In this document: piece after piece, positions 17,666 through 30,655 of the stretch
Layout of the letters: each line of letters begins with the position of its first letter
Position numbering within the stretch: position 1 is the first letter of the stretch
Source: Rhodopseudomonas sp.
GTDB taxonomy: Bacteria > Pseudomonadota > Alphaproteobacteria > Rhizobiales > Xanthobacteraceae
Direction of reading: 5' to 3'
DNA: 64,000 nucleotides
Assembly: GCA_016124795.1 (NCBI GenBank)
Contig: WGNB01000015.1
Coordinates: 1 to 64,000 of the forward strand
Notes under the pieces: model-generated
What the model saw: only the letters and a program-made list of their open reading frames with translations
Told to the model about the DNA's origin: nothing
Database searches by the model: none
Program-made: the position numbers and the translations under genes

Positions 17666-19498
17666 CTAACCTCCCGCCATTTCCTCGCGCATCATTTCCA
17701 GCTCGAGCCATTCTTCTTCCGCCGCCGTCAGCTTGCGCTGGGCTTCGCCGAGGTCGTTGGTGACCTTGTCGAAGCCGGCGCGGTCGCGCTGGAAGAATTG
17801 CGGATCGGCGAGTTTGCCCTGCAATTCCTTGATCTTGGTTTCAAGGGCCGCCATCGTTTTCGGCAGGGTTTCCAGCGCGTGCTTGTGCTTGAAACTCATT
17901 TTCTGCTTGGGCGCGGCGGCGGCGGGCTTGGCCGTTGCGGCCTTGTCCGCCTTGTCCGCCTTGTCCGCCTTGGACGGCTCGGCGGCAGGCTGGCTGCGTT
18001 TGAGGTCTTCGCCGCGCTGCGCCAGCATGTCGGAATAGCCGCCGGCATATTCGGTCCAGCGGCCGTCGCCTTCCGGCACGATCACGCCCGACACCAGCCG
18101 GTCGAGGAAGTCGCGATCATGGCTGATGAGAATGACGGTGCCGGCATAATCGCCGATGACGTCTTCCAGAACGTCGAGCGTTTCCATGTCGAGATCGTTG
18201 GTCGGTTCGTCGAGCACCAGCAGGTTCGACGGCTTGGCCAAAGCTTGAGCCAGCATCAGCCGGCCGCGTTCGCCGCCGGATAATTTCCCGAGCGGGGTAC
18301 GCGCCTGTTCGGGTGCAAACAGGAAGTCGCGCATATAGCCGATGACGTGCTTGGGTTGGCCATTGACCATGACGGTCTCACCGGAACCGCCTGTCAGAGC
18401 GTCGGCGACGGTGGTTTCCGGCTTCAGGCTGTCGCGATGCTGATTGAGGGTGGCGACTTCCAGGGTCGAGCCGAGTTTGACGGTACCGGAGTCGGGCGGT
18501 TCGGCGCCGATCAGCATATTGATCAGCGTGGTCTTGCCGCTGCCGTTCGGTCCGACAATGCCGATACGGTCGCCGCGTGCCACCCGCAGTGAAAAATCGC
18601 TGACGATGGCGCGCTCGCCATAAGTTCGATTGATGTTCTTGGTTTCGATCACCAGTGCGCCCGAGGCCGAGGCGGCTCCGGCGGTAATGCTGGCCACACC
18701 AGCGACGCCGCGATAGGTGCGGCGCTGCTCGCGCAATGCCTGCAGTTCGCCGACGCGCCGCATATTGCGTTTGCGTCGGCCGGTGACGCCGTAGCGCATC
18801 CAGTGCTCTTCCATCGCGATCTTTCGGTCGAGCTTGTGTTGCGCGACTTCTTCCTCGGCCAGCAGGGCGTCGCGCCATTCCTCGAAGTGCGCGAAGCCGC
18901 GATCGAGCCGTTTGGTGGTGCCGCGGTCGAGCCAGACGGTGGAGCGCGTCAGGTTCGACAGAAATCGTCGATCATGGCTGATGATGACCAGAGCGGTACG
19001 ACGCGAGGCAAGATCCTTTTCCAGCCACTCAATGGTGGTGAGATCGAGATGGTTGGTCGGTTCGTCGAGCAGCAGAATATCGGGGTCGGCGGCCAGCGCG
19101 CGGGCCAATGACGCGCGGCGGGCTTCACCACCGGACAAATGGGCCGGGTTTTCCGTGCCGGTGAGGCCCAGCTCTTCAACCAGATTGCGGGCGATGTAGT
19201 GGTCGTCTTCGGACAGCAAGCCGCCTTCGACATAGCTGAGCGTGGTGTCGTAGCCGGAAAAATCGGGCTCTTGCGCCAGATAGCGCACGACCGCGCCGGG
19301 CTGCACAAAAACGGTGCCGGAATCCGGCTCGACCAGTCGGGCGGCGATTTTCAGCAAGGTGGATTTGCCGGAGCCGTTGCGACCGACCAGCGATACCCGT
19401 TCGCCGGTCGAGACCGAGAGGTCGGCGCCGGACAGCAAGGGTGTGCCGCCAAAGGTCAATTTGATGCCGGTGAGTTGCAGAAGCGGAGGAGGGGCCAT
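17666..19498 (-). CDS. uup: ABC-F family ATPase (Uup-like)
   Basis: 610 residues with two ATP-binding cassettes and no membrane segment. Cassette 1 has Walker A GRNGSGKST (39-47), LSGGEARRASLARALAADP and LLLDEPTNHLDL. Cassette 2 has GPNGSGKTTLINML, LSGGERGRLMLAQALAKP and LVLDEPTNDLDM. A lysine/alanine linker and a C-terminal coiled coil (about 530-610) match Uup. ABC-F proteins act on the ribosome; Uup also affects precise transposon excision in E. coli. ATG 19498 gives the usual N-terminus; ATG 19555 adds 19 basic residues. No strong Shine-Dalgarno for either. Confidence 0.92.
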   Translation of the reverse strand: MAPPPLLQLTGIKLTFGGTPLLSGADLSVSTGERVSLVGRNGSGKSTLLKIAARLVEPDSGTVFVQPGAVVRYLAQEPDFSGYDTTLSYVEGGLLSEDDHYIARNLVEELGLTGTENPAHLSGGEARRASLARALAADPDILLLDEPTNHLDLTTIEWLEKDLASRRTALVIISHDRRFLSNLTRSTVWLDRGTTKRLDRGFAHFEEWRDALLAEEEVAQHKLDRKIAMEEHWMRYGVTGRRKRNMRRVGELQALREQRRTYRGVAGVASITAGAASASGALVIETKNINRTYGERAIVSDFSLRVARGDRIGIVGPNGSGKTTLINMLIGAEPPDSGTVKLGSTLEVATLNQHRDSLKPETTVADALTGGSGETVMVNGQPKHVIGYMRDFLFAPEQARTPLGKLSGGERGRLMLAQALAKPSNLLVLDEPTNDLDMETLDVLEDVIGDYAGTVILISHDRDFLDRLVSGVIVPEGDGRWTEYAGGYSDMLAQRGEDLKRSQPAAEPSKADKADKADKAATAKPAAAAPKQKMSFKHKHALETLPKTMAALETKIKELQGKLADPQFFQRDRAGFDKVTNDLGEAQRKLTAAEEEWLELEMMREEMAGG

Positions 19499-19701
19499 TT
19501 TTTTGCGGGGTATTTTCGTTGGTCTGGCGCGATACGGCGCGGAACACTTCCGCATCGCTTATGTTGGGTGATCCGGTACAGGGCGAAAGCCCCGGCGTCA
19601 AAGTTTTGCCGTTAAGGATTAGCGATGCGCCGTGCGACCGGGCTGTGACAGCCGGGCTCGTCGGCTGCAAGACCGCGCCGGTGTGGCGGCATCCTGGCCG
19701 A

Positions 19702-20934
19702 TCAGCGGGCGGCGTCAGGCCGGTTTAGGGCGTCGAGCCGGCGGATCGTTGGGCCGAGATGACGCTCGGTAATATCGCGCAATGCCGGCGTCGCCGCTTC
19801 GTGCTTGGCGACGCTATCGGCGGCGAATTCCAGTTGCGGCAGCTTGGCGTCGAAAGCGGCGGTCCGCCGCATCGCGTCGCGAGCGGACGCTTCAATGTAG
19901 ATGCCGAAATGCGGCAGGATCCGGCTGAAGACAGCGTCGGGCAATTCGCGATAATCGACCGCCAGGCCGCGGTGAGGCCGCTTCGCAAGTCGGTCGGCGG
20001 CGGCGGCGCAAATTCGATTGAGGACTTGCGCGCAATGATCCGTGTTCGGAACGTCGTATCCGGCAAGGCCGAGGTCGGCGAACGTCAGGAAGCCGGGCAC
20101 CGTCTGGCTGCCGCGTTCGCGCATCTGCGACACCATGACCTCGACCGGATCGCGATAAAGAAACAGCCACGGTGTCTCGGGAAAGGCCTTCTCGAACAGC
20201 GGCAAGGTTAGCGTGTGCCAGCAGTCGAGCTTGAAGAAAGCGTGGCGTTCGCCGCCGGCGCGTGGCCGGCTGAAAGCCAGAATCATGGCGCGGAGAATGT
20301 CGGCGTGTCGCGCATCCGGTAAAGCCGTTGACCCCAGCCGTACCGCGTCGTCGACTGCGGGGGCTTCCGAAATGACGACATGGTCGCTGAGCGCGGCCAG
20401 CATCCGGCTCACCAAAGTCGAGCCGCAGCGCGACATATGAAATATAAAGCCGCTCGGCATCAGGCTTGCGCCGGTTCTGTCCTGGCGCCGGGCTTCCTGA
20501 AGGAAATCTTCGAGCGTCATGCGATAACGAAACATACGATTGAACGGCCGGTACAAGGTGGCGTGAATCGATTGTTCGAAGAAAGGTTTGGTCAGCGGTT
20601 CCGGCCCGAAGCGCAGCCAGTCGACAAAGATGGCGTCATTCTGACTGACGATGCCGATGGGCAGCCAATGGCGCGGCGGCCAGAGCGAGTCGTCAGGCGG
20701 CGTCGGAACGAAGCGCGCAATGCCGAGCGGGTCGGGTCGGGTCGCGTTTTGAATGTCCCGTTCGGCCAATTCGATACCGCGGTCATGCGCAGCCGCCAAA
20801 AGCCGTTCGGCAAATATGTCGGGTCGTTCGGTGTCGGCTAGTGCCGACGCCAGGGTCTCGTCGGCGAGGATGTGCGGCATGAACTGGTTGCGCGCTGAAG
20901 TGGACGTGAGCGACGTCGGATCGAGGCTTGTCAT
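19702..20934 (-). CDS. Sulfotransferase-like protein with possible Nif11-like N-terminal segment
   Basis: 410 residues. Residues about 150-330 look like a sulfotransferase: 5'-phosphosulfate loop MSRCGSTLVSRMLAAL, later FLYRDPVEVMVSQMRER (3'-phosphate-binding type, RDP...S...R). The first 55 residues, especially ALADTERPDIFAERLLAAAH and DRGIELAERDI, resemble the Nif11 leader-like domain found on some peptide natural-product precursors and fused to enzymes; this is a judgement by eye. Lies 3 kb from the lasso cluster but is separated from it by the tail-collar genes. The substrate is unknown. Confidence 0.65.
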   Translation of the reverse strand: MTSLDPTSLTSTSARNQFMPHILADETLASALADTERPDIFAERLLAAAHDRGIELAERDIQNATRPDPLGIARFVPTPPDDSLWPPRHWLPIGIVSQNDAIFVDWLRFGPEPLTKPFFEQSIHATLYRPFNRMFRYRMTLEDFLQEARRQDRTGASLMPSGFIFHMSRCGSTLVSRMLAALSDHVVISEAPAVDDAVRLGSTALPDARHADILRAMILAFSRPRAGGERHAFFKLDCWHTLTLPLFEKAFPETPWLFLYRDPVEVMVSQMRERGSQTVPGFLTFADLGLAGYDVPNTDHCAQVLNRICAAAADRLAKRPHRGLAVDYRELPDAVFSRILPHFGIYIEASARDAMRRTAAFDAKLPQLEFAADSVAKHEAATPALRDITERHLGPTIRRLDALNRPDAAR

Positions 20935-21149: not shown

Positions 21150-21452
21150 ATGACGGCCAGAAAACTGGTGTTCGAGGATTTCGCCGACAAAATTGGCGAT
21201 ATGTTTCCAATCTGCGACCACGACGTTCCGCGCATTCCGCTGACTCTGGCGGAAGCGGAATTGCATGAGGCAAAGTGGCATATGCCGGGCATCAGGCCAC
21301 CGTTCTCGCTGGTGTTTCTGGCGAACGACGGCACGGTTCTGCCGCAGCGGCTGTATCGGATGGAGCACGACCGGCTCGGTGCGCTGGAAATTTTTCTGGT
21401 GCCGATCGCCCAGGATGGCCGAGGCGTCAGCTATCAGGCGACGTTCAACTGA
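21150..21452 (+). CDS. DUF6916-like small protein
   Basis: 100 residues, soluble, no signal peptide. Pattern MTARKLVFEDFADKIGD ... LTLAEAELHEAKW ... PPFSLVFLANDGTVLPQRLYR ... GALEIFLVPIAQD fits the uncharacterised DUF6916 family, whose genes commonly sit beside tail-collar (microcystin-dependent-protein-like) genes. Here three such genes lie about 600 bp away. Converges on the GNAT gene. No function can be assigned. Confidence 0.7.
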   Translation: MTARKLVFEDFADKIGDMFPICDHDVPRIPLTLAEAELHEAKWHMPGIRPPFSLVFLANDGTVLPQRLYRMEHDRLGALEIFLVPIAQDGRGVSYQATFN

Positions 21453-21463
21453 ACTCTCTGCGA

Positions 21464-22021
21464 CTAAGCCTGCGCCGCGAATCTGGTGTCGGACGGTGCG
21501 TCGTCCGGCCACCATTCCATTTCGATGACGATGTCCTGATCGGCAACAGCGGTGAAGCCAAGCCGCCGATAGAACCGCAAAGCCGGGCTGAATTTCTCGA
21601 CGAAAATACCGACGCCGAGACTGCGCGCGCGCGACCAGTCCTGCAAGGCCGCGAAGATCGCGGTGCCGACACCTTGCCCGCGCCACGCCGGCAGCAGTGC
21701 GATATCGACGACATGGACGCAGGTCTGCCGATGGTCGAGATAGAGCCGGCCGATCGGCTGGCTGTCATGTTCGATGACGTCGAACCGGCAGCCGTCGATA
21801 AAGGTCCGGTAGTGATGGCGCTGCGCCCTGAACTGATTGGCGAGGAAGGTTTGCTTTATTTCCGATGTCCAGGGTACCGGCGCCAATTCCGCTTCCCGAG
21901 TCGACGCATAGAGCTGCATCAGAAATGGCGTGTCGTCCTCGCGCTCCGGCCGCAGGCGATAGCCTTCAGACAATAACGCAATCGGCAGCGCGAATGCCGG
22001 CGGCGCAGGGTCGTCGGTCAT
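21464..22021 (-). CDS. GNAT-family N-acetyltransferase
   Basis: 185 residues. Acetyl-CoA-binding motif DIALLPAWRGQGVGTAIFAAL (R-G-Q-G-V-G-T) and FYRRLGF near the end are diagnostic. The substrate is unknown. Lies directly downstream of the tail-collar genes (12 bp) in the same orientation, so probably the last gene of that operon. This combination of collar proteins with an acetyltransferase may be a functional unit. Confidence 0.85.
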   Translation of the reverse strand: MTDDPAPPAFALPIALLSEGYRLRPEREDDTPFLMQLYASTREAELAPVPWTSEIKQTFLANQFRAQRHHYRTFIDGCRFDVIEHDSQPIGRLYLDHRQTCVHVVDIALLPAWRGQGVGTAIFAALQDWSRARSLGVGIFVEKFSPALRFYRRLGFTAVADQDIVIEMEWWPDDAPSDTRFAAQA

Positions 22022-22032
22022 GATGGGATCGC

Positions 22033-22572
22033 CTAGTTGCGGGTCGGGAAGACGCCCTCGGTCGCAATGCAGAAGTTCAGGACGAGGTAAGGCTGCATAT
22101 TGTTATGCGACTCGGAATTGCCGGTCATTCCGATCGAGTTCGGGGAAAAGGCTAGGTTCGGAGTTGAGGGCGCGGCCTGGTAGATCGCCCCACCGCCGGA
22201 CCGGGCCATATAACTTGTCGCGACTGGTCCGGCCGATCGTTCGGAGCCGCCGCCGGCTTCGATCTGCGCCGCTGAAATCATATGCGAGTGCTGCGGAATT
22301 TCACTGACAATCAAGGTTACCGACGGCGAGCCGAGGGGCTCGCCGATCACGGTGTTCAGGCCGGCACCTGAGCCGGGATGCATCGGTGATTGGCCCTGAA
22401 GATTCGGCAATCCGAAGGTGGCGCGCCCGTCTCCGCCATAGGTCGTGCCGAGAATCGAGAAGAGCGCCGTATTCACGCTGATATTGAGAAGTTGACCGTT
22501 GCACATCGCCCAGCCCCGCGGCGCAAAATTGAAGCCGAAGCAACGGATCTCACCGATAAAGGGTTCGGCCAT
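22033..22572 (-). CDS. Phage tail-collar domain protein, paralogue 3
   Basis: 179 residues. Tail-collar (microcystin-dependent-protein-like) fold: GFNFAPRGWAMCNGQLLNI, then ALFSILGTTYGGDGRATFGL, SEIPQHSHMI and the C-terminal MQPYLVLNFCIATEGVFPTRN pattern. ATG 22572 has AAGGAG at good spacing. No phage genes are nearby, so this belongs to the bacterial collar-protein trio rather than a prophage. Molecular role unknown; possibly a secreted or tail-like spike component. Confidence 0.85.
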   Translation of the reverse strand: MAEPFIGEIRCFGFNFAPRGWAMCNGQLLNISVNTALFSILGTTYGGDGRATFGLPNLQGQSPMHPGSGAGLNTVIGEPLGSPSVTLIVSEIPQHSHMISAAQIEAGGGSERSAGPVATSYMARSGGGAIYQAAPSTPNLAFSPNSIGMTGNSESHNNMQPYLVLNFCIATEGVFPTRN

Positions 22573-22583
22573 TTTGGCTCTCC

Positions 22584-23129
22584 TTAGTTGCGCGACGGGA
22601 ATATGCCGGCCAAGGCGATGATGAAGTTGACGCAAAGCGACGGCATCAGGTTGCTATGTGGCAGGCTTCCGCCGTTTCGCGAACAAACCAGTGGGTTCAT
22701 GGCGACAGGGTCCAGCGGTGGCTTGCCGGCTTGCTCGGCGGCATAAAACAGCGCGCCCGTTCCGGTCGCCGTGGCGAGAACCACGCTGGAGCCGATGGTG
22801 CCGGTGTTGGCGTCACCTTTCGTGGCCACTAGACTGTGACTGTGGGCCGGCATTGTCGTGGTGGTGATCGTCACATTCGGGCTGCCGCCCGGTTGACCCA
22901 ACGAGTAGTTAGGCAGGCCGTTGCCCTGACCCTGGTGGATCGACAGTCGCGATTTCAGATTGGGCAGCGCGAAGGTCTGGACGCCATCGCCGCCATAGAC
23001 GGTGCCGAGCAGGGCAAACAGCGCATCGTTCTGGGAGATGGATAACAGTTGTCCGTCACACAATGCGTAGCCGCGTGGCGCGAAACTACCGGCGAACATG
23101 GTGACTTGACCAAGAAAGACAATGCTCAT
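22584..23129 (-). CDS. Phage tail-collar domain protein, paralogue 2
   Basis: 181 residues, middle gene of the trio. Shares FAPRGYALCDGQLLSISQND, ALFALLGTVYGGDGVQTFAL, MPAHSHSL and a FPSRN C-terminus with its neighbours. The variable middle (about 100-155) is rich in Thr, Gly and Ala. Eleven bases separate it from the next gene, so they are cotranscribed. Confidence 0.85.
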   Translation of the reverse strand: MSIVFLGQVTMFAGSFAPRGYALCDGQLLSISQNDALFALLGTVYGGDGVQTFALPNLKSRLSIHQGQGNGLPNYSLGQPGGSPNVTITTTTMPAHSHSLVATKGDANTGTIGSSVVLATATGTGALFYAAEQAGKPPLDPVAMNPLVCSRNGGSLPHSNLMPSLCVNFIIALAGIFPSRN

Positions 23130-23165: not shown

Positions 23166-23699
23166 TTAGTTGCGGGACGGGAACAGGCCAGTCAGGCTGA
23201 TGCACCAATTCAGCGTCAAATAAGGTTGCATGTTTTCGTGCGCCTGGCCTTGGCCGAAGCTAGAGACTGATGCCGGGTTCAGCGGTTGCGGCGTCGTCAA
23301 GGGTCCATAAAAATTGGCGGCGGTGCCGCCGCTGTTCGATGCCTTGGCCAAGGCCTGGTTCGGCGCCGCCAGGGCGACCGTGGCGTCCGACGATGCGCCG
23401 AGAAACTGATGTGAATGCGCCGGCATTTGTGCCGTCGTCAGCGCCACGGAGGCTTGCCCGGAGGCTTGGCCAATCGGATAGCCGGTTCCGTTCAGGGTGC
23501 CTTCATGCAGCGGCACCCGGCCGCGCAGATCGGGCAACAGGAAGGTGGTCGTGCCGTTACCGCCGTAAAAGGTTCCCAGCAACGAAAACAGCGCCTGATT
23601 TTGCGCGATGTTGAGGGTCTGACCATCGCATTTCGCCCAGCTTTTCGGCGGAAAGCCGAACGCGAACGGCTGAATTTGCCCAATGAAAGGTTGAGTCAT
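23166..23699 (-). CDS. Phage tail-collar domain protein, paralogue 1
   Basis: 177 residues, first gene of the leftward trio. Motifs: FPPKSWAKCDGQTLNIAQNQ, ALFSLLGTFYGGNGTTTFLL, MPAHSHQFLG and MQPYLTLNWCISLTGLFPSRN-type end. ATG 23699 follows GGGAGGCAGGC, a strong ribosome site; an in-frame start 11 codons upstream is unlikely. An AT-rich promoter region lies upstream at 23755-23786. Confidence 0.86.
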   Translation of the reverse strand: MTQPFIGQIQPFAFGFPPKSWAKCDGQTLNIAQNQALFSLLGTFYGGNGTTTFLLPDLRGRVPLHEGTLNGTGYPIGQASGQASVALTTAQMPAHSHQFLGASSDATVALAAPNQALAKASNSGGTAANFYGPLTTPQPLNPASVSSFGQGQAHENMQPYLTLNWCISLTGLFPSRN

Positions 23700-24122: not shown

Positions 24123-24290
24123 ATGAACGGCGACGACGTGAACGAGCAGCCGCGTAATGCGTCGGATCGGCCCATGGAAGCCGCTCCGCGCAAGGTGTGG
24201 CATGCGCCGAAGCTGACCGTGAAGGAAATTCAAAGCACCGAACTTGGCGGCTACTCGTTTTCCGACAACGGCTCATTGTTCACGAGCTGA
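24123..24290 (+). CDS. Lasso peptide precursor (A protein)
   Basis: 55 residues: a leader of about 40 and a 15-residue predicted core LGGYSFSDNGSLFTS. Leader residues 26-31 (WHAPKL) match the YxxPxL recognition motif read by RRE proteins, with Trp for Tyr. Thr39 is then the conserved Thr at position -2. Cutting after Glu40 leaves Leu1 and Asp8, giving an eight-residue macrolactam ring; Leu1 lasso peptides such as citrulassin exist. Cutting before Gly42 would give an unusual seven-residue ring and put Thr at -3. The core ends in Ser, the residue modified by HPr-kinase-like lasso kinases. ATG 24123 has GGAG 7 nt upstream; an upstream in-frame TTG (24084) adds 13 residues. The cyclase follows on the same strand. 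Confidence 0.82.
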   Translation: MNGDDVNEQPRNASDRPMEAAPRKVWHAPKLTVKEIQSTELGGYSFSDNGSLFTS

Positions 24291-24359
24291 TTCTTGATCC
24301 CGTTTCTGCAGTATCGCCGACCGTAAAGGCGTCACCGTCAGTCGAACGAGACGCCGAAT

Positions 24360-24382
24360 GTCATGATCCCGATGGTCATGAC
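24360..24382 (+). promoter_or_regulatory. Intercistronic hairpin between lasso precursor and cyclase
   Basis: GTCATGA (24360-24366) pairs with TCATGAC (24376-24382) around a 9-nt loop, in the 114-bp gap between precursor and cyclase. Such a stem often stabilises the short precursor message and lowers downstream enzyme expression. No T-tract, so not a full terminator. Role is inference. Confidence 0.4.
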
Positions 24383-24404
24383 CCGAGTGCGAGGCTTTTG
24401 ATCC

Positions 24405-26369
24405 ATGGCGGCATTTGCCGGTATCGTCGCCTTTGACGGTGGGGTCGCGGACGAAGCCGCCGAGCGTCATCTGGCAGGCGCGGTGCTGGCCGATCGAGAT
24501 CGCCCGGCGATCATGCGACGTATCGGCCAATCGGTCTTCGCGCAGCGCGTCGACGCTGCCATAGGTAACCGCGCTCGACACCATGCGGTCGGCGGGACGT
24601 TTGGTGCGCTGGACCAGAGCGACAAGCTGTTCGTAGCTTCGGCGCGCCTGGATAACCGCGCCGAACTGGCGGATGCTTTGACGATCGATCCGGCGACGCT
24701 TGCCGGACTATCCGATGGCGATCTCCTGAACCGGATGCTGCTGCGGTGGGGTGAAGCGGGAATAGCCCGCTGTCTTGGCGCGTTTGCCTTCGTGCAATGG
24801 GATGCGACGGAGCGTCGTCTAACGCTCGGTCGCGATTGCCTTGGCGGACGGGCGCTGTTTTTCCATCGTGGTCGAGGTTTCGTCGCCTTTGCCTCGACGT
24901 TGACCGGATTGCTGGCGATGCCGGACGTGCCGCGTCAGCTCGACGAGGATGTGCTGGCCAATTTCCTGGCGCTTAATCTGTCGGAACAACGCCGGACTTT
25001 TTATCGCGGCATCGAACGGGTACCGAGCCGAACCTTGATCAAGATGGACCGCGACCGCATCGTCCATCGGCTTTATTGGTCGCCGGACCTCGATGCGCCG
25101 CCGCCCTATCGGCGCGATGAAGATTATGTCGCGCGCGCGCGTGAACTGTTCGATCAGGCGGTCGCCGTATCCATTGCCGGCACGCCGCATTTTGCCATTG
25201 CCACCAGCGGCGGGCTGGATTCCAGTGCGGTGGCGGCGACCGCGGCCGGGCTCGGCGCCGGTCGGCGCATCGCCTGTTACACCATCGTTCCGCCGGCGGG
25301 GGCGCCCACCGATGTCGGATCGTATCGTTACCGGGACGAGACTGATAAGGTCGCCGCGCTGGCGCGCATGTACCCCGCGCTTGACCTGCGGCTAATTGCC
25401 GGCGATGTCGGCGCGCCGCTCAGGGATGAAGAAGGCCGGCGTTTTGCGACCATGAATACCCCGGCGCTCGGCCCGGCCGCCATGCTCGGCGGCGCCTATA
25501 AATTATATGATGCGGTCGCCGCGGAGCGCTGTCCGGCCCTGCTGGTCGGCAACTACGGCAATTTCGGTTTGTCGTGGAGCGGCCAATATTCTCTTCTGGC
25601 GCTGTTGCGCGCCGGTCAGCCGGGCGACTTTCTGCGCGAACTGATCGCGATCGCGCGCAACACCGGACATGGCGTGCTGCGCACGATTGCGCATGACCTG
25701 ATCTATGCCGCGGCGCCGATCGAGATCAGACGATTGATGTTCTGCCTGATCGGCCGGGATTTCGACAGTGTGGCGCGTTACAGTTCGCTCAATCCGGCTT
25801 ATATCGCCGAGAGCGGCCTCGGCCGGCAATGGCGCGCGGACGGTTTTAATCTGTGGCCCGGCCGGGACGGTTGGCAGCCACAGCGTTATCGCGCGAATTA
25901 CCTGTTCGACGACAATCAATCCGCCCGCGATCATCTGGGAATGTTCGAAGACCTGCATGGCTACGCCATCCGCGATCCGCATGCCGACCGCCGGCTGCTG
26001 GAATTTGCCTTGTCGGTGCCGGAGCCGGTCTTCCGTCGCAACGGCGTGGCGCGCTCGTTTGCGCGCACCGTCTTTGCCGATCGGCTGCCGCGCGTCATCA
26101 CCGACGAGCGGCGACGCGGCGCCAACGCAGTTGCCTGGTTCAGTCAAATGCAGGCGCGGCGGCAGGACATCGCCGCCGAAGTCGAGCGGCTGGAAGCTTC
26201 GCCGACCGCGCGCCGGCTGATTGATCTGCCGCGCCTTAAGCGCCTTCTCGATCAATGGCCGAAAGATCAAAATGCCGCCGAACGGCGTAGTCGCGATTAC
26301 CGTCTGGTTCTTGGCCGCGGCGTTCATGTCGGCCGTTTCATTCGTTGGGTCGAGGGTGGCAATGCCTGA
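24405..26369 (+). CDS. Lasso cyclase (asparagine-synthetase-like, C protein)
   Basis: 654 residues. N-terminal glutaminase-like fold (about 1-180, starts MAAFAGIVAFDGG; no Cys2 nucleophile, as expected for cyclases) and a C-terminal ATP-pyrophosphatase/asparagine-synthetase domain with SGGLDSS (268-274), which adenylates the ring Asp so that the core N-terminus attacks it. Later RRGANAVAW and YRLVLGRGVHVGRF complete the family pattern. Starts 114 bp after the precursor; its stop overlaps the start of the PqqD-like gene. Confidence 0.88.
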   Translation: MAAFAGIVAFDGGVADEAAERHLAGAVLADRDRPAIMRRIGQSVFAQRVDAAIGNRARHHAVGGTFGALDQSDKLFVASARLDNRAELADALTIDPATLAGLSDGDLLNRMLLRWGEAGIARCLGAFAFVQWDATERRLTLGRDCLGGRALFFHRGRGFVAFASTLTGLLAMPDVPRQLDEDVLANFLALNLSEQRRTFYRGIERVPSRTLIKMDRDRIVHRLYWSPDLDAPPPYRRDEDYVARARELFDQAVAVSIAGTPHFAIATSGGLDSSAVAATAAGLGAGRRIACYTIVPPAGAPTDVGSYRYRDETDKVAALARMYPALDLRLIAGDVGAPLRDEEGRRFATMNTPALGPAAMLGGAYKLYDAVAAERCPALLVGNYGNFGLSWSGQYSLLALLRAGQPGDFLRELIAIARNTGHGVLRTIAHDLIYAAAPIEIRRLMFCLIGRDFDSVARYSSLNPAYIAESGLGRQWRADGFNLWPGRDGWQPQRYRANYLFDDNQSARDHLGMFEDLHGYAIRDPHADRRLLEFALSVPEPVFRRNGVARSFARTVFADRLPRVITDERRRGANAVAWFSQMQARRQDIAAEVERLEASPTARRLIDLPRLKRLLDQWPKDQNAAERRSRDYRLVLGRGVHVGRFIRWVEGGNA

Positions 26370-26670
26370 ACACATCCCGGAGACGCCGCTGCCGCCGATT
26401 GACGACGGCACATTGATCAGCCGCAGCACCGAGCTTCTGGTGGCGCCGGTGCGCGACGAACTGCTGATGATGGATATCGACCGCGATTGTTATTACGGCC
26501 TCGACGATATCGGCAGCGATATATGGCGGCGGCTGGAATCGCCTTGTCGGTTCGGCGCCCTGATCGATGGCCTGGCCGCCGATTACGCCGCCGAACACGC
26601 GGTGATCGCGGCCGATTTGCGTCCCTTGTTGGCGGACATGGCGGCGCGCGGGATGGTGAGCCTGGCATAA
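26362..26670 (+). CDS. PqqD-like RRE protein (first copy, + strand)
   Basis: 102 residues. PqqD fold used as RiPP recognition element: SRSTELLVAPVRDELLMMDI, DCYYGLDDIGSDIWRRLESP, then a helical C-terminus (LRPLLADMAARGMVSL). In lasso pathways this B1 role binds the leader and hands it to the peptidase. The ATG overlaps the cyclase stop by 8 bp; GAGGG lies upstream. A second, divergent PqqD-like protein is encoded at 27179-27454 on the other strand, so which one delivers the precursor is open. Confidence 0.82.
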   Translation: MPEHIPETPLPPIDDGTLISRSTELLVAPVRDELLMMDIDRDCYYGLDDIGSDIWRRLESPCRFGALIDGLAADYAAEHAVIAADLRPLLADMAARGMVSLA

Positions 26671-26739
26671 GACACCGAACGTGGATCGTGGGCTTGGCCG
26701 ATCATCCGTCGAAGCGTCGGCGCGCGCTTTCGTTAGCAT

Positions 26740-27216
26740 TCAGACGTAACAGGCAATCTCGGTGAAGCTTTTGGCAACCGGATAGCCGGTGACTTCGATG
26801 CCGGCGGCGTCGAGCCAGGCATGGGTATCGAGCGTTTGATCCTTGGCCTTGGCGGCGCCGAAATGCAGGATGCTGGCGACGCCCCGCCGCTTCAGCATCA
26901 CGCGGGCGGCCATGGCCTGCGGCAAACAGACCGCCGCGAACGGTACATGACGCGCTGCCCGGGTTACGGCCCAGCCGATATCGCTTGCGACACGGACGTC
27001 GTCTGACGATCGCGGGTTTTTGGCCGCGGTGGCGCGCGCGACTTCCGGTGTGGCGAAAGTGCCGAGCCGCTGTGCCAGACGTGGAAATGGCACCAGCCGC
27101 AGCGCTGTGCGTGCCAGCCATAGCCATATTATCGCTTCGATCACCAGCAAGCGGCGGCGGCCATCGACCTGCGTGAATCTATGCAGCGGATGGCGGATCG
27201 AGCGTAACCACGCCAT
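26740..27216 (-). CDS. Lasso leader peptidase (B2, transglutaminase-like)
   Basis: 158 residues. Papain/transglutaminase-like B2 protein that removes the leader: Cys97 in VCLPQAMAARVMLKRRG and His132 in LDTHAWLDAAGIEV, with Asp136 or a nearby acid completing the triad. An N-terminal hydrophobic stretch (about 22-42) may contact the membrane. ATG 27216 lies inside the upstream PqqD-like gene (38-bp overlap), so translation is coupled. Last gene of the leftward operon, converging on the + strand PqqD gene. Confidence 0.85.
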   Translation of the reverse strand: MAWLRSIRHPLHRFTQVDGRRRLLVIEAIIWLWLARTALRLVPFPRLAQRLGTFATPEVARATAAKNPRSSDDVRVASDIGWAVTRAARHVPFAAVCLPQAMAARVMLKRRGVASILHFGAAKAKDQTLDTHAWLDAAGIEVTGYPVAKSFTEIACYV

Positions 27217-27454
27217 GTTTCACCAGTTCGTTGACAAAACTCCGGACTTCGGCGCGACAGGTAGCCGGCGACACGTCAAACTCCCGACCGAGCCGGTCGC
27301 AGATCGTGTCGATGGGTTGCGGCGTCGCAATCAGTTCCCATATCCGCGCGCCGATTTCGCTTAGCTCGATATAGTGTCGGTTGTTCGCGTTCATCATCAC
27401 GAGTTCATCGCCAAGCGAAGCGGTCAGCCAGCCGTCGGTCCGTCGTACCAGCAT
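27179..27454 (-). CDS. PqqD-like RRE protein (second copy, minus strand; B1)
   Basis: 91 residues. PqqD fold: LVRRTDGWLTASLGDELVMM, NRHYIELSEIGARIWELI, IDTICDRLGREFDV, VNELVKHGVVTL. Overlaps the B2 gene start, the usual B1-B2 order of lasso operons, so it is the better candidate for leader recognition during cleavage. ATG 27454 lies 10 bp after the sulfotransferase stop. An upstream in-frame start adds 15 residues into that gene and is less likely. Confidence 0.83.
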   Translation of the reverse strand: MLVRRTDGWLTASLGDELVMMNANNRHYIELSEIGARIWELIATPQPIDTICDRLGREFDVSPATCRAEVRSFVNELVKHGVVTLDPPSAA

Positions 27455-27464
27455 GGCAGCTCCG

Positions 27465-28400
27465 CTATTCGGCGTGGACCGGCATCGCGTCCGAGACAAG
27501 ATGATAGCCCAGTCGTTTCATCATGGCGCCATGATCGGCTTCCAGCCGCGCCACCTGCGCCGACGTCAGTTCGTCGCGCCAGCCGCCGGCGATGCCGCGC
27601 CTGAAAAATTGGTTGCCGCTCGACGGTCGCGGTGCTTCGCGAAAGCCTTTGGCTGCCTCCTGGGCGCGCAATTCGGAAAAGCGAGCGAGCCGGACCGCGC
27701 GATGGATCCGCTTCGGTTCAGTGTCGTAATGCGCGAAGGACAGTACATTTCGTAGCGCTCCGGCGGTATCGGCCAGCAGTTCCTCGTAACGTAGCAACAG
27801 GATTGGCAGGTCGGACTGATCCAGCCAGCTCGCGACATGGTCGCTCCAGCTCAACATCCGTTGGCGTAGCTGGCCGAACTGGCGGTTGGTTTGAGCGCAG
27901 AAAGCGCATTCGCGGTTGGCCATGGTCGCAATCGCCTGATCGATACCGGTGCGGTTATGATTGGCAAAGGACGGCGCGACGTCGCGCGGGTCGCGCACCA
28001 GGACGACGGCGCCGTCGGCGCCGCGCCGGCCGGCCAACAACGGTTCGCCGCGCCGCGTCAGGGTATAGGCATCGTGGACCTTGACGAAACGCGTCGGTGG
28101 CGTTCCCGTCGTTCCTTGATTTCGGCTATAGGCTTCAGCGCGTGCGATGTGCTCTTCCGGGTGTGCGTAAATATATTCGAGGACGCGCGGTCGCAGATCG
28201 TCGATTTCGTCGAATGTCAGAAGGCCGGATTCAATCTGGGTCCATTCATCGAACGGTTCGCGCCCGCTGGCGATGCTGCCTTGCGGCGGCAGGTCGTTGA
28301 TATCAATTGGTTGTTCGCCCGTTGCCAGCAGGTTCGCGATCAGCATGCGCAGCCATGTGTTGCCGGATTTCGGGAATGAGGCGAGCCAGACGGTGCGCAT
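27465..28400 (-). CDS. PAPS-dependent sulfotransferase (lasso cluster tailoring candidate)
   Basis: 311 residues. Canonical sulfotransferase-1 motifs: 5'-phosphosulfate loop FPKSGNTWLRML (PKSGNTW 10-16), a likely catalytic His109 in VKVHDAYT, and 3'-phosphate-binding VRDPRDVAPSF (RDPRDV 136-141). Transfers sulfate from PAPS to a hydroxyl or amine. Its position between the kinase and B1-B2, overlapping the kinase stop by one base (TGATG), points to action on the lasso peptide; Tyr4, Ser or Thr of the core are candidates. ATG 28400 preferred over GTG 28403. Confidence 0.85.
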   Translation of the reverse strand: MRTVWLASFPKSGNTWLRMLIANLLATGEQPIDINDLPPQGSIASGREPFDEWTQIESGLLTFDEIDDLRPRVLEYIYAHPEEHIARAEAYSRNQGTTGTPPTRFVKVHDAYTLTRRGEPLLAGRRGADGAVVLVRDPRDVAPSFANHNRTGIDQAIATMANRECAFCAQTNRQFGQLRQRMLSWSDHVASWLDQSDLPILLLRYEELLADTAGALRNVLSFAHYDTEPKRIHRAVRLARFSELRAQEAAKGFREAPRPSSGNQFFRRGIAGGWRDELTSAQVARLEADHGAMMKRLGYHLVSDAMPVHAE

Positions 28401-29326
28401 CACGCCGCCTTGTCCAGCAAGCCGATGTCCTGCCAGTTTTGTTCCAGCGATGCGATAACCGCCGGCATGGCCTTGAAGTCCAGCGGTCGTGTCAATGTGA
28501 ACAGGCTGGCGCTGTTGACGATGGCGCTGGCGGCCCGGAAGTAGTCGGTTTTTTGACCCATTCGGTTGACGAGGTGCGGCCGGTAGGCATTTTGCCGCAA
28601 CGCCAGCGCGCCATCGATTGCGGCCTGTTGCTCGATGCCGGGGCGGTGCGGCGGCCGCGCTTCGCGTAGTATGTAGATCGCGGCGAGCGGCAGGGATTGG
28701 ACGAAGACGTCGTCCGGCGCGACATAATATTTTTCAAGACGACGTCGCACGCGGTCGCCGCGCCCAGCGGCCAGATCGAGTCGATCGATGGCCTGCGCCC
28801 ATAATTTAAGATGACGTCCTTCCGGGTGGACCGTCGGCGTGGCACCGGCGGTAATGGAAATCGCGCCGACGTCGTCCGCGACCACAGGAAAGCCGTGCTT
28901 CGCCAGAGCCGCCGCCATGGTTGACTTGCCGCTGCCGGATCGACCGCAAAACAGCACGGCCTTGCCGTTCACCCGCACGGCGCTGGCGTGCAAGACGATT
29001 TGTCCGCGTTGATGCAGAAGAATTCCGAATACGGTGCCGAGAATGAAAATCGGAATGTCGGTGGGGTCGCCATCGGTGTCCGGCGTGACCGTGATGTGAT
29101 GTCCATCGGTCAGTAGGAACCGCGCGATGCCGGGGATGGCCAGGAGAAATTGTTGGCCGGCGATCTGCCAGGTTGGCCCGTTGGCGGTCGCGTCGGATAG
29201 CGAAGTCGGCGTCGTACCAAGTTCGATGGTCACGTCGTGCGTGGGGGTGGCGCTAGTGGCCGCATTCAGTCCCGGCAACATGATGTCGCTGCCGACCGTC
29301 AGACCGCAGACACGATAGCGATGCAT
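28400..29326 (-). CDS. HPr-kinase-like kinase of the lasso cluster
   Basis: 308 residues. C-terminal P-loop domain with HASAV (His113), Walker A GRSGSGKST (128-136) and VVADDVGAI (Asp151-Asp152), the HprK pattern. The N-terminal half is the variable domain seen in HprK-like proteins of RiPP clusters. In paeninodin-type clusters such kinases phosphorylate the C-terminal Ser of the precursor; the precursor here also ends in Ser. ATG 29326 has GAGG 7 nt upstream. First gene of the leftward kinase-sulfotransferase-B1-B2 operon. Confidence 0.83.
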   Translation of the reverse strand: MHRYRVCGLTVGSDIMLPGLNAATSATPTHDVTIELGTTPTSLSDATANGPTWQIAGQQFLLAIPGIARFLLTDGHHITVTPDTDGDPTDIPIFILGTVFGILLHQRGQIVLHASAVRVNGKAVLFCGRSGSGKSTMAAALAKHGFPVVADDVGAISITAGATPTVHPEGRHLKLWAQAIDRLDLAAGRGDRVRRRLEKYYVAPDDVFVQSLPLAAIYILREARPPHRPGIEQQAAIDGALALRQNAYRPHLVNRMGQKTDYFRAASAIVNSASLFTLTRPLDFKAMPAVIASLEQNWQDIGLLDKAA

Positions 29327-30430: not shown

Positions 30431-30655
30431 CTATTTCTTGCGGATGCGGAAGCTTTGCACGCCGTCGGCCTCGGTCTTGCCTTCCAGCGTGTCGCCGGTC
30501 TGACGCAGAAGATTGGGAATATCGATTGCCGCCAGCGGGTCGGTGCATTCCGCCACGATGATGTCGCCGGATTTCAGGCCGGACAGCTTCTTTTTCACCC
30601 GCAGCGTAGGCAAGGGGCATTTCAGCCCCCGCAGGTTCATGATCGTGTCGGTCAA
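30431..30655 (-). CDS. tusA: TusA-like sulfurtransferase
   Basis: 74 residues. Small sulfur-carrier of the TusA/SirA/YedF family with the signature RGLKCPLPTLRVKKKL; Cys13 carries the persulfide. It hands sulfur to tRNA thiolation or molybdenum cofactor and FDH maturation routes. TTG 30655 with GAGGAA 7 nt upstream gives the usual length; an ATG five codons inside would leave too little in front of the motif. Located next to MoeA-type genes and within reach of FdhD, which needs sulfur transfer. Confidence 0.88.
   Translation of the reverse strand: MTDTIMNLRGLKCPLPTLRVKKKLSGLKSGDIIVAECTDPLAAIDIPNLLRQTGDTLEGKTEADGVQSFRIRKK

Follow-up and report, generated by a model that had tools for sequence, protein, structure and literature searches.

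A probable lasso peptide island that comes and goes with a set of tail-collar genes in Rhodopseudomonas

We analysed a 64,000-nucleotide stretch of DNA from Rhodopseudomonas sp. ("the window": positions 1 to 64,000, forward strand, of contig WGNB01000015.1 in assembly GCA_016124795.1), in which a set of lasso peptide genes lies beside three tail-collar genes. An island at 19.6–29.3 kb (to 30.4 kb with an optional nitroreductase gene) probably makes a disulfide-free lasso peptide and a companion tail-collar set; we give this reading a probability of about 0.7. As judged from sequence, the peptide is most likely phosphorylated, sulfation is possible, and a tail-tip-like protein set would be its partner. 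Relatives were sought in samples of 391 genomes of the family and 385 of the class; the genome-wide search for collar genes (PF07484) covered the family sample.

Seven lasso genes make up two transcription units, one rightward and one leftward, that converge at about 26.7 kb. The original prediction had placed the genes in the same way, and our coordinates and strands agree with it. The rightward unit consists of a 55-residue precursor (A, 24123–24290, identified as an open reading frame), the lasso cyclase (C, 24405–26369), and a PqqD-like ribosomal-peptide recognition element, or RRE (B1x, 26362–26670). The leftward unit consists of an HprK-like kinase (K, 28400–29326), a sulfotransferase (ST, 27465–28400 or 28403), another PqqD-like RRE (B1, open reading frame 27179–27499 with a probable ATG start at 27454), and the leader peptidase B2 (26740–27216). 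The ATG of ST overlaps the stop codon of K. B2 is the clearest of these by profile: it scores 74.2 bits against the lasso model NF033537 (cut-off 33) and 84 bits against PF13471, and it has the motifs VCL, HAW, and LDAAG. For C, the lasso cyclase model NF033535 is the top match in NCBIfam (179 bits, missing the cut-off of 525), ahead of asparagine synthase TIGR01536 (111 bits); the SGGLDS loop is retained and the N-terminal Cys is missing. The check that had been suggested, a search with lasso cyclase and B2 profiles, thus gave lasso models as the best match for both proteins, with the cyclase under its cut-off. Both PqqD-like proteins pass the PF05402 cut-off of 23 (49 bits for B1x and 68 bits for B1) and score best to the lasso PqqD model NF033536 (43 and 67 bits), missing its cut-off of 80. 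ST matches PF00685 (89 bits), contains SFPKSGN, RDPRD, and RRGIAGGW, and is related to sulfotransferases of solved structure (best E 1e-10). The motif patterns that we used for ST (3'-phosphoadenosine-5'-phosphosulfate, or PAPS), C, and B2 (Cys/His/Asp) are ones that we take to be typical of these proteins. One scan of a collection of genome contigs with the cyclase as the query found a single relative, 29% identical.

K scores under its cut-offs (31.9 bits against 33.3 for PF07475; 47 bits against 200 for HprK_rel_A), so the kinase call also rests on motifs and relatives. It has LHA at residue 112, GRSGSGKS at 128, and ADD at 150, and lasso kinases are described as having a His, a P-loop, and an Asp-Asp motif (PMC9266682, PMC10368454; these and the other papers below are cited from excerpts). 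In a tblastn comparison, K matched a gene of Priestia aryabhattai (E 6e-24) that occupies the kinase position in a paeninodin-family cluster and is annotated as an aldolase. No solved structure resembled K at E 0.01.

The extent of the island follows from related genomes that lack it. At four empty sites (G142, G157, G260, and G034, chosen from the 7 cluster-less genomes of the genus that were searched), the genes for an ABC-F protein, TusA, and MoeA1 are consecutive, and the matched parts of ABC-F and TusA are 77–118 bp apart. In the window, 10.9 kb lie between ABC-F (to 19555) and TusA (from 30431). Besides the lasso genes and the nitroreductase gene, this insert holds a second sulfotransferase-family protein (ST2, 19702–20934, minus strand; PF13469 36 bits, cut-off 27), a DUF6916 protein (21150–21452, plus strand; PF21880 82 bits), a GNAT acetyltransferase (21464–22021, minus strand; PF00583 48 bits) that is convergent with the DUF6916 gene and downstream of the collar genes, and the three collar genes themselves, all on the minus strand. 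Of these, t1 (23166–23699; PF07484 95 bits) is next to the precursor gene and divergent from it, t2 (22584–23129; 90 bits) clusters position-wise with its counterparts, and t3 (22033–22572; 93 bits), the third transcribed, matches a phage tail family over residues 5–168. ST2 and DUF6916 are present at all six island loci that we compared (L034, L035, L047, L049, L050, and L053) and at none of the four empty sites. All six loci also have GNAT, the two collars that were queried, C, B2, ST, and K, and their gene order is the same except for a cassette that we discuss below. (ABC-F lies outside the fetched stretch in L047, L049, and L053, and a nitroreductase gene beyond K is found only in the window, L049, L050, and L053.) Because the empty sites and the six island loci differ by the whole block, collar and lasso genes are gained and lost together: the unit consists of the lasso genes plus the block of collars, GNAT, ST2, and DUF6916. 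The original prediction, which described the cluster as two operons, was right about the genes and their layout; it was incomplete in that it did not mention that the second PqqD-like protein is probably cassette-borne, that K and ST belong to a constant chassis, or that there is a larger left-hand unit at 19.6–23.7 kb.

We found no clear attachment repeats at the island. An imperfect 23-nt inverted pair (83%) at 19534–19556 and 30443–30465 lies near its ends; both copies are in coding sequence and the pair may be due to chance. Promoter matches were at chance level (3 against 3.4 expected), and no PADLOC family matched any of seven island proteins.

The collar genes are associated with kinase-type lasso clusters well beyond this site. 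Among 43 genomes of the genus, K is found in 9 and a PF07484 match in 12. Short collar genes are present in all 9 genomes with K and in 0 of the 34 without; three genomes without K have one PF07484 match each, in frames of 290–336 aa. Three short collars are on the same contig as the cluster in 7 of the 9 genomes, and in G283 the triplet is on another contig. Across the family sample, a PF07484 match is present in 29 of 33 genomes with K and in 97 of 358 genomes without it (Fisher P = 6e-12, ignoring kinship). At loci that have both K and C, at least two collar genes are present at 20 of 36 loci in the family (including the window) and at 8 of 25 in the class, and these 8 are spread over seven other families. 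Also, plasmids of Azospirillum oryzae and Azospirillum sp. TSH100 have three annotated tail fibre genes and a GNAT gene beside a lasso cluster. (No tail fibre gene is found within the stretch around the kinase–cyclase loci of Tistrella mobilis pTM1 and Thalassobaculum sp.) The relative orientation varies: the collars are divergent from C in L034, L035, L038, and L057, and co-directional and downstream of C in L047, L050, L051, and L053. Most collar sets have a GNAT gene no more than 2.5 kb away: 24 of the 30 located at K or cyclase loci, and 25 of the 28 others.

The three collar paralogues seem to be three distinct subunits, as suggested by the order in which they are kept: in a tree of 153 proteins from 51 triplets, the position labels require 16 changes, as compared to 72 when shuffled. 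A test of separate origins for the link to collars in the genus and in other groups, using concatenated triplets, gave p-AU (approximately unbiased test) values of 0.029 with L060 and 0.088 without it, and we make no claim of such origins. One long tail fibre of solved structure resembles a collar (E 7e-5). A structure prediction from the window's three copies gave a mean pLDDT (predicted local distance difference test) of 29.7. Viral contigs contained 4 relatives of the collars and no relative of the kinase.

Several observations weigh against our main reading. Of the loci with K and C, 16 of 36 in the family and 17 of 25 in the class have fewer than two collar genes, and the genus genome G311 has one short collar gene by its cluster rather than three, with its other match in a longer frame elsewhere. 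The collar–GNAT operon is also found beside large proteins in stretches without lasso genes. ABC-F and MoeA2 are not close together in 3 of the 7 cluster-less genomes (G127, G182, and G208, which were not fetched). Exporter homologues show no significant depletion where collars are present (p 0.16). And C, K, and both RREs score under their NCBIfam cut-offs. Lasso-specific models score best for the cyclase, B2, and both PqqD-like proteins, but B2 is the only one to pass the cut-off of its model.

The loci with fewer than two collars, and the collar operons without lasso genes, are what would be expected if this were an ordinary kinase-type lasso cluster and the collar operon were beside it by chance or by hitch-hiking, at a site prone to insertions, as insertion at one site could unite unrelated genes. 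However, seven other families and two Azospirillum plasmids show the same pairing, in two relative orientations. If there were one triplet per 5 Mb, one would fall within a 17-kb stretch about 0.3% of the time, as compared to the observed 20/36 and 8/25 (ignoring kinship). Thus, a chance neighbourhood is unlikely, and we see this explanation as a minority view that still deserves some credit. We have less sympathy for the idea that the three collars are leftovers of a prophage or tailocin. They do match tail families of PHROGs, but they are the only ones of nine island proteins to do so: GNAT matches an acetyltransferase family, the other five match nothing at E 1e-5, and there is no sheath, tube, baseplate, or capsid match among the nine. 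Also, leftovers would hardly be expected as three full-length paralogues that mostly keep their order over 51 triplets, so we consider this explanation very improbable.

The cluster could instead be decayed or cryptic and have no product, which might account for the two RREs, the lack of an exporter nearby, and the low scores of C and K. This too is improbable, and only marginally more credible than phage remnants, as all of the frames are open, motifs are retained, and K is stop-free in eight other genomes of the genus, at 54–63% identity to the window's K. We return to the reading in which the lasso genes and the collar block are a functional unit.

Within this unit, the cyclase and the precursor are exchangeable. 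The kinases of 11 chassis loci (nine from the window's genus and two, L051 and L052, from another genus) form one clade, with support of 100/95 in a tree of 55 rows. The cyclases of the 9 chassis loci that have a cyclase row fall instead into three supported clades, mixed with sequences from other genera, and a single clade for the nine was rejected (p-AU 6e-54). As shown by the disagreement between the cyclase and kinase trees, the cyclase and precursor (and, in the window, probably their own RRE) have been swapped between relatives within a constant chassis of K, ST, B2, and collars. The clade of the window's cyclase also holds L034, L035, L049, L074, and L077. (The divergent cyclases L117, L102, L069, L054, and L055 were removed before the main tree was built, and a 44-row tree that includes them shows the same split. 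The trees and counts include the near-duplicates L040/L075 and L034/L035.) The layout of the cassette differs as well, with C convergent with B2 in the window, L034, L035, and L049 and co-directional in L047, L048, L050, L051, and L053. When cassette type is traced on a tree of the constant genes, it changes 3 times, where 2 would be the minimum, and a single type II clade was not rejected (p 0.53), so two exchanges are the least that we claim.

The exchange would also explain the two RREs of the window. B1 has 53–61% identity with its counterparts at eight chassis loci. The nearest relative of B1x is the cyclase-adjacent RRE of L049 (63%), followed by that of L077 (57%), and both of these loci have cyclases of the window's clade. 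No B1 was seen between ST and B2 in L049. B1x probably arrived with the cyclase cassette. That the cassette can be swapped suggests that K, ST, and B2 accept a range of cores, a property that would be useful for producing lasso peptides with modifications.

Precursor A has the leader motif WHAPKL (W-x-x-P-x-L) and a Thr 13 residues past the Trp. If that is Thr(−2), then its 15-residue core is probably LGGYSFSDNGSLFTS, with Asp at position 8 and FTS at the C-terminus. The leader motif and the gene position are shared with the precursors of other loci. We recognised these by eye, by a W/Y-x-x-P motif near a cyclase, and discarded other candidates; no precursor was accepted at loci including L041, L042, L043, L044, L045, L049, L051, L069, L071, L077, L121, and L129. 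Although the cores vary, 44 of 47 precursors end in Ser (33/36 in a first set and 11/11 in a second). The original prediction had raised the question of whether homologous clusters conserve the precursor: the W-x-x-P motif and the C-terminal Ser are conserved, and the sequence itself is not, as 149 genomes of the family gave no clear homologue (the best match other than itself had E 0.018).

The recurring Ser suggests that it is phosphorylated. Indeed, the lasso kinases PadeK, ThcoK, and SyanK are reported to act on a C-terminal Ser (PMC9266682, PMC8498205). Two points argue the other way: the picking of precursors was not blinded to the last residue, and BsfK phosphorylates Ser3 in the ring rather than a C-terminal Ser (PMC10368454). 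As for the sulfotransferase, all 18 of the tabulated precursors from loci where ST adjoins K end in Ser, 7 of the 18 have a Ser or Thr beside it, and 5 have a Tyr. Given these counts, K and ST may both act on one end of the peptide, or the site used by ST may vary. We rejected Tyr as the common sulfation site, as it is present in only those 5 precursors. Two loci, L078 and L080, each have three different precursor-like reading frames downstream of one cyclase, all with a C-terminal Ser.

We propose that precursor A is bound via its W-x-x-P leader by B1x and/or B1, as would be expected for these families, and that K phosphorylates it, most likely at the C-terminal Ser. ST would transfer sulfate from PAPS to the peptide or to its phosphorylated end, which is a putative target. 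The cut by B2 would fall one residue beyond Thr(−2), and C would then close an 8-residue ring from Leu1 to Asp8. The product would act with or on the three-collar module, GNAT, ST2, and DUF6916; what we observe is that these genes are jointly present or absent at one site and that the association recurs elsewhere. A more specific idea, which we offer only as speculation and think doubtful, is that the lasso peptides here are not free small molecules but an exchangeable end-piece or assembly factor, phosphorylated and perhaps sulfated, of a tail-tip-like surface structure that the three paralogous collars would form. If this were true, the chassis of K, ST, B2, collars, and GNAT would be fixed while the peptide–cyclase cassette is changed like the tip of a device. 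For the role of lasso peptides, a genetic partner that is gained and lost together with the cluster at one site in this genus, and that is found again beside such clusters in eight families of our samples, gives a testable lead beyond antibiosis.

The pairing of a kinase with a sulfotransferase is common among relatives. K (E ≤ 1e-12) is found in 33 of the 391 family genomes, at 46 places. K is adjoined by ST on the same strand in 32 of 46 cases at the fetched loci of the family (with the window) and in 28 of 42 cases at those of the class. The P-loop is retained in 46 of 56 K rows and Asp-Asp in 54 of 56; in ST rows, the 5'-PAPS pattern is retained in 59 of 61, R-x-P-x-D in 51, and the RKG pattern in 30. 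The pair predicts peptides that bear both phosphate and sulfate, and the kinase–sulfotransferase module may serve other peptides too. At L066, L068, L070, and L076 there are K–ST pairs and no lasso cyclase match in the fetched stretch. Three K–ST pairs are packed into 20 kb at L122 (G708:C3:1-19900), with an RRE and relatives of the cyclase around each. L065 has K, an RRE, the collar triplet, and GNAT, with only fragments of ST and no cyclase match, and is perhaps decaying.

How the peptide would be exported was left unexplained by the original prediction, which saw no transporter. This is correct for the neighbourhood: no membrane-spanning ABC exporter is seen at 17–31 kb, the part of the genome to which this search was confined. 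The one ABC protein there (17666–19555) has two ABC domains and ABC_tran_CTD, which make it an ABC-F type protein (from the best 25 of 30 family matches), so we rejected it as the missing exporter. Nor did we find support for the idea that the collars stand in for an exporter, as exporter homologues are found at 2 of 30 loci with collars and 7 of 35 without (this count overlooked L104, which has an annotated ABC transporter at its edge).

The window resembles the kinase-tailored clusters of paeninodin (PadeK), ThcoK, and SyanK in its split B1/B2, its cyclase, the motifs of its HprK-like kinase, and its Ser-ending precursor (PMC9266682). Published gene orders of such clusters are C A K B1 B2 D and A B1 B2 C K D (PMC5067487). 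The window instead has convergent units, with ST following K, an additional RRE, and the collar/GNAT block, and it lacks a nearby D. A putative sulfotransferase gene is known from lasso clusters of Firmicutes (PMC8498205, crediting Zhu et al. 2016), but there it is at the start of the cluster instead of directly after K. In a table for Pontixanthobacter, the cluster numbers of B2, PqqD, Asn synthase, and two sulfotransferases are nearly consecutive, on which the excerpt makes no comment (PMC10040529). The BsfK system of Bradymonas sediminis shares a kinase, a discrete RRE that speeds phosphorylation, and B2; however, it has exporter and nucleotidyltransferase genes, ring Ser3 as the target, and a leader with Ile(−2) (PMC10368454). 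Finally, the isopeptidase/TonB clusters of Alphaproteobacteria (astexin, caulosegnin, and sphingocin) are like the window in being described, in the excerpts, without an ABC exporter (PMC5067487, PMC11006600). The window differs from them in its split B1/B2 and its kinase, and no isopeptidase or TonB receptor is among the matches listed for the island proteins that were scanned; reading frames further out were not scanned.

In our literature searches we found no name for the operon of three collars and GNAT. Among the open PMC papers searched, none links tail collars to lasso peptides by title, and the terms "lasso peptide" and "tail collar" co-occur in no open PMC paper (subscription papers were outside the search). 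The operon itself is widespread. With three collars and mostly with GNAT, it is found beside large proteins at L081–L096, L099, and L105–L113. Plasmids of Ruegeria, Paenibacillus, Comamonas, Rhizobium, Sinorhizobium, and Deinococcus have operons of three annotated tail fibre genes and GNAT, and so resemble the window in gene content, but these adjoin Ig-like, YDG, choice-of-anchor, beta-helix, or unnamed proteins (annotated at about 940–3900 aa) instead of a lasso cluster. A collar operon of Spirosoma is beside a large protein and has no GNAT. At L097 and L098, collar domains are part of long frames (1240–1281 aa), and L097 is near a lasso-type cyclase.

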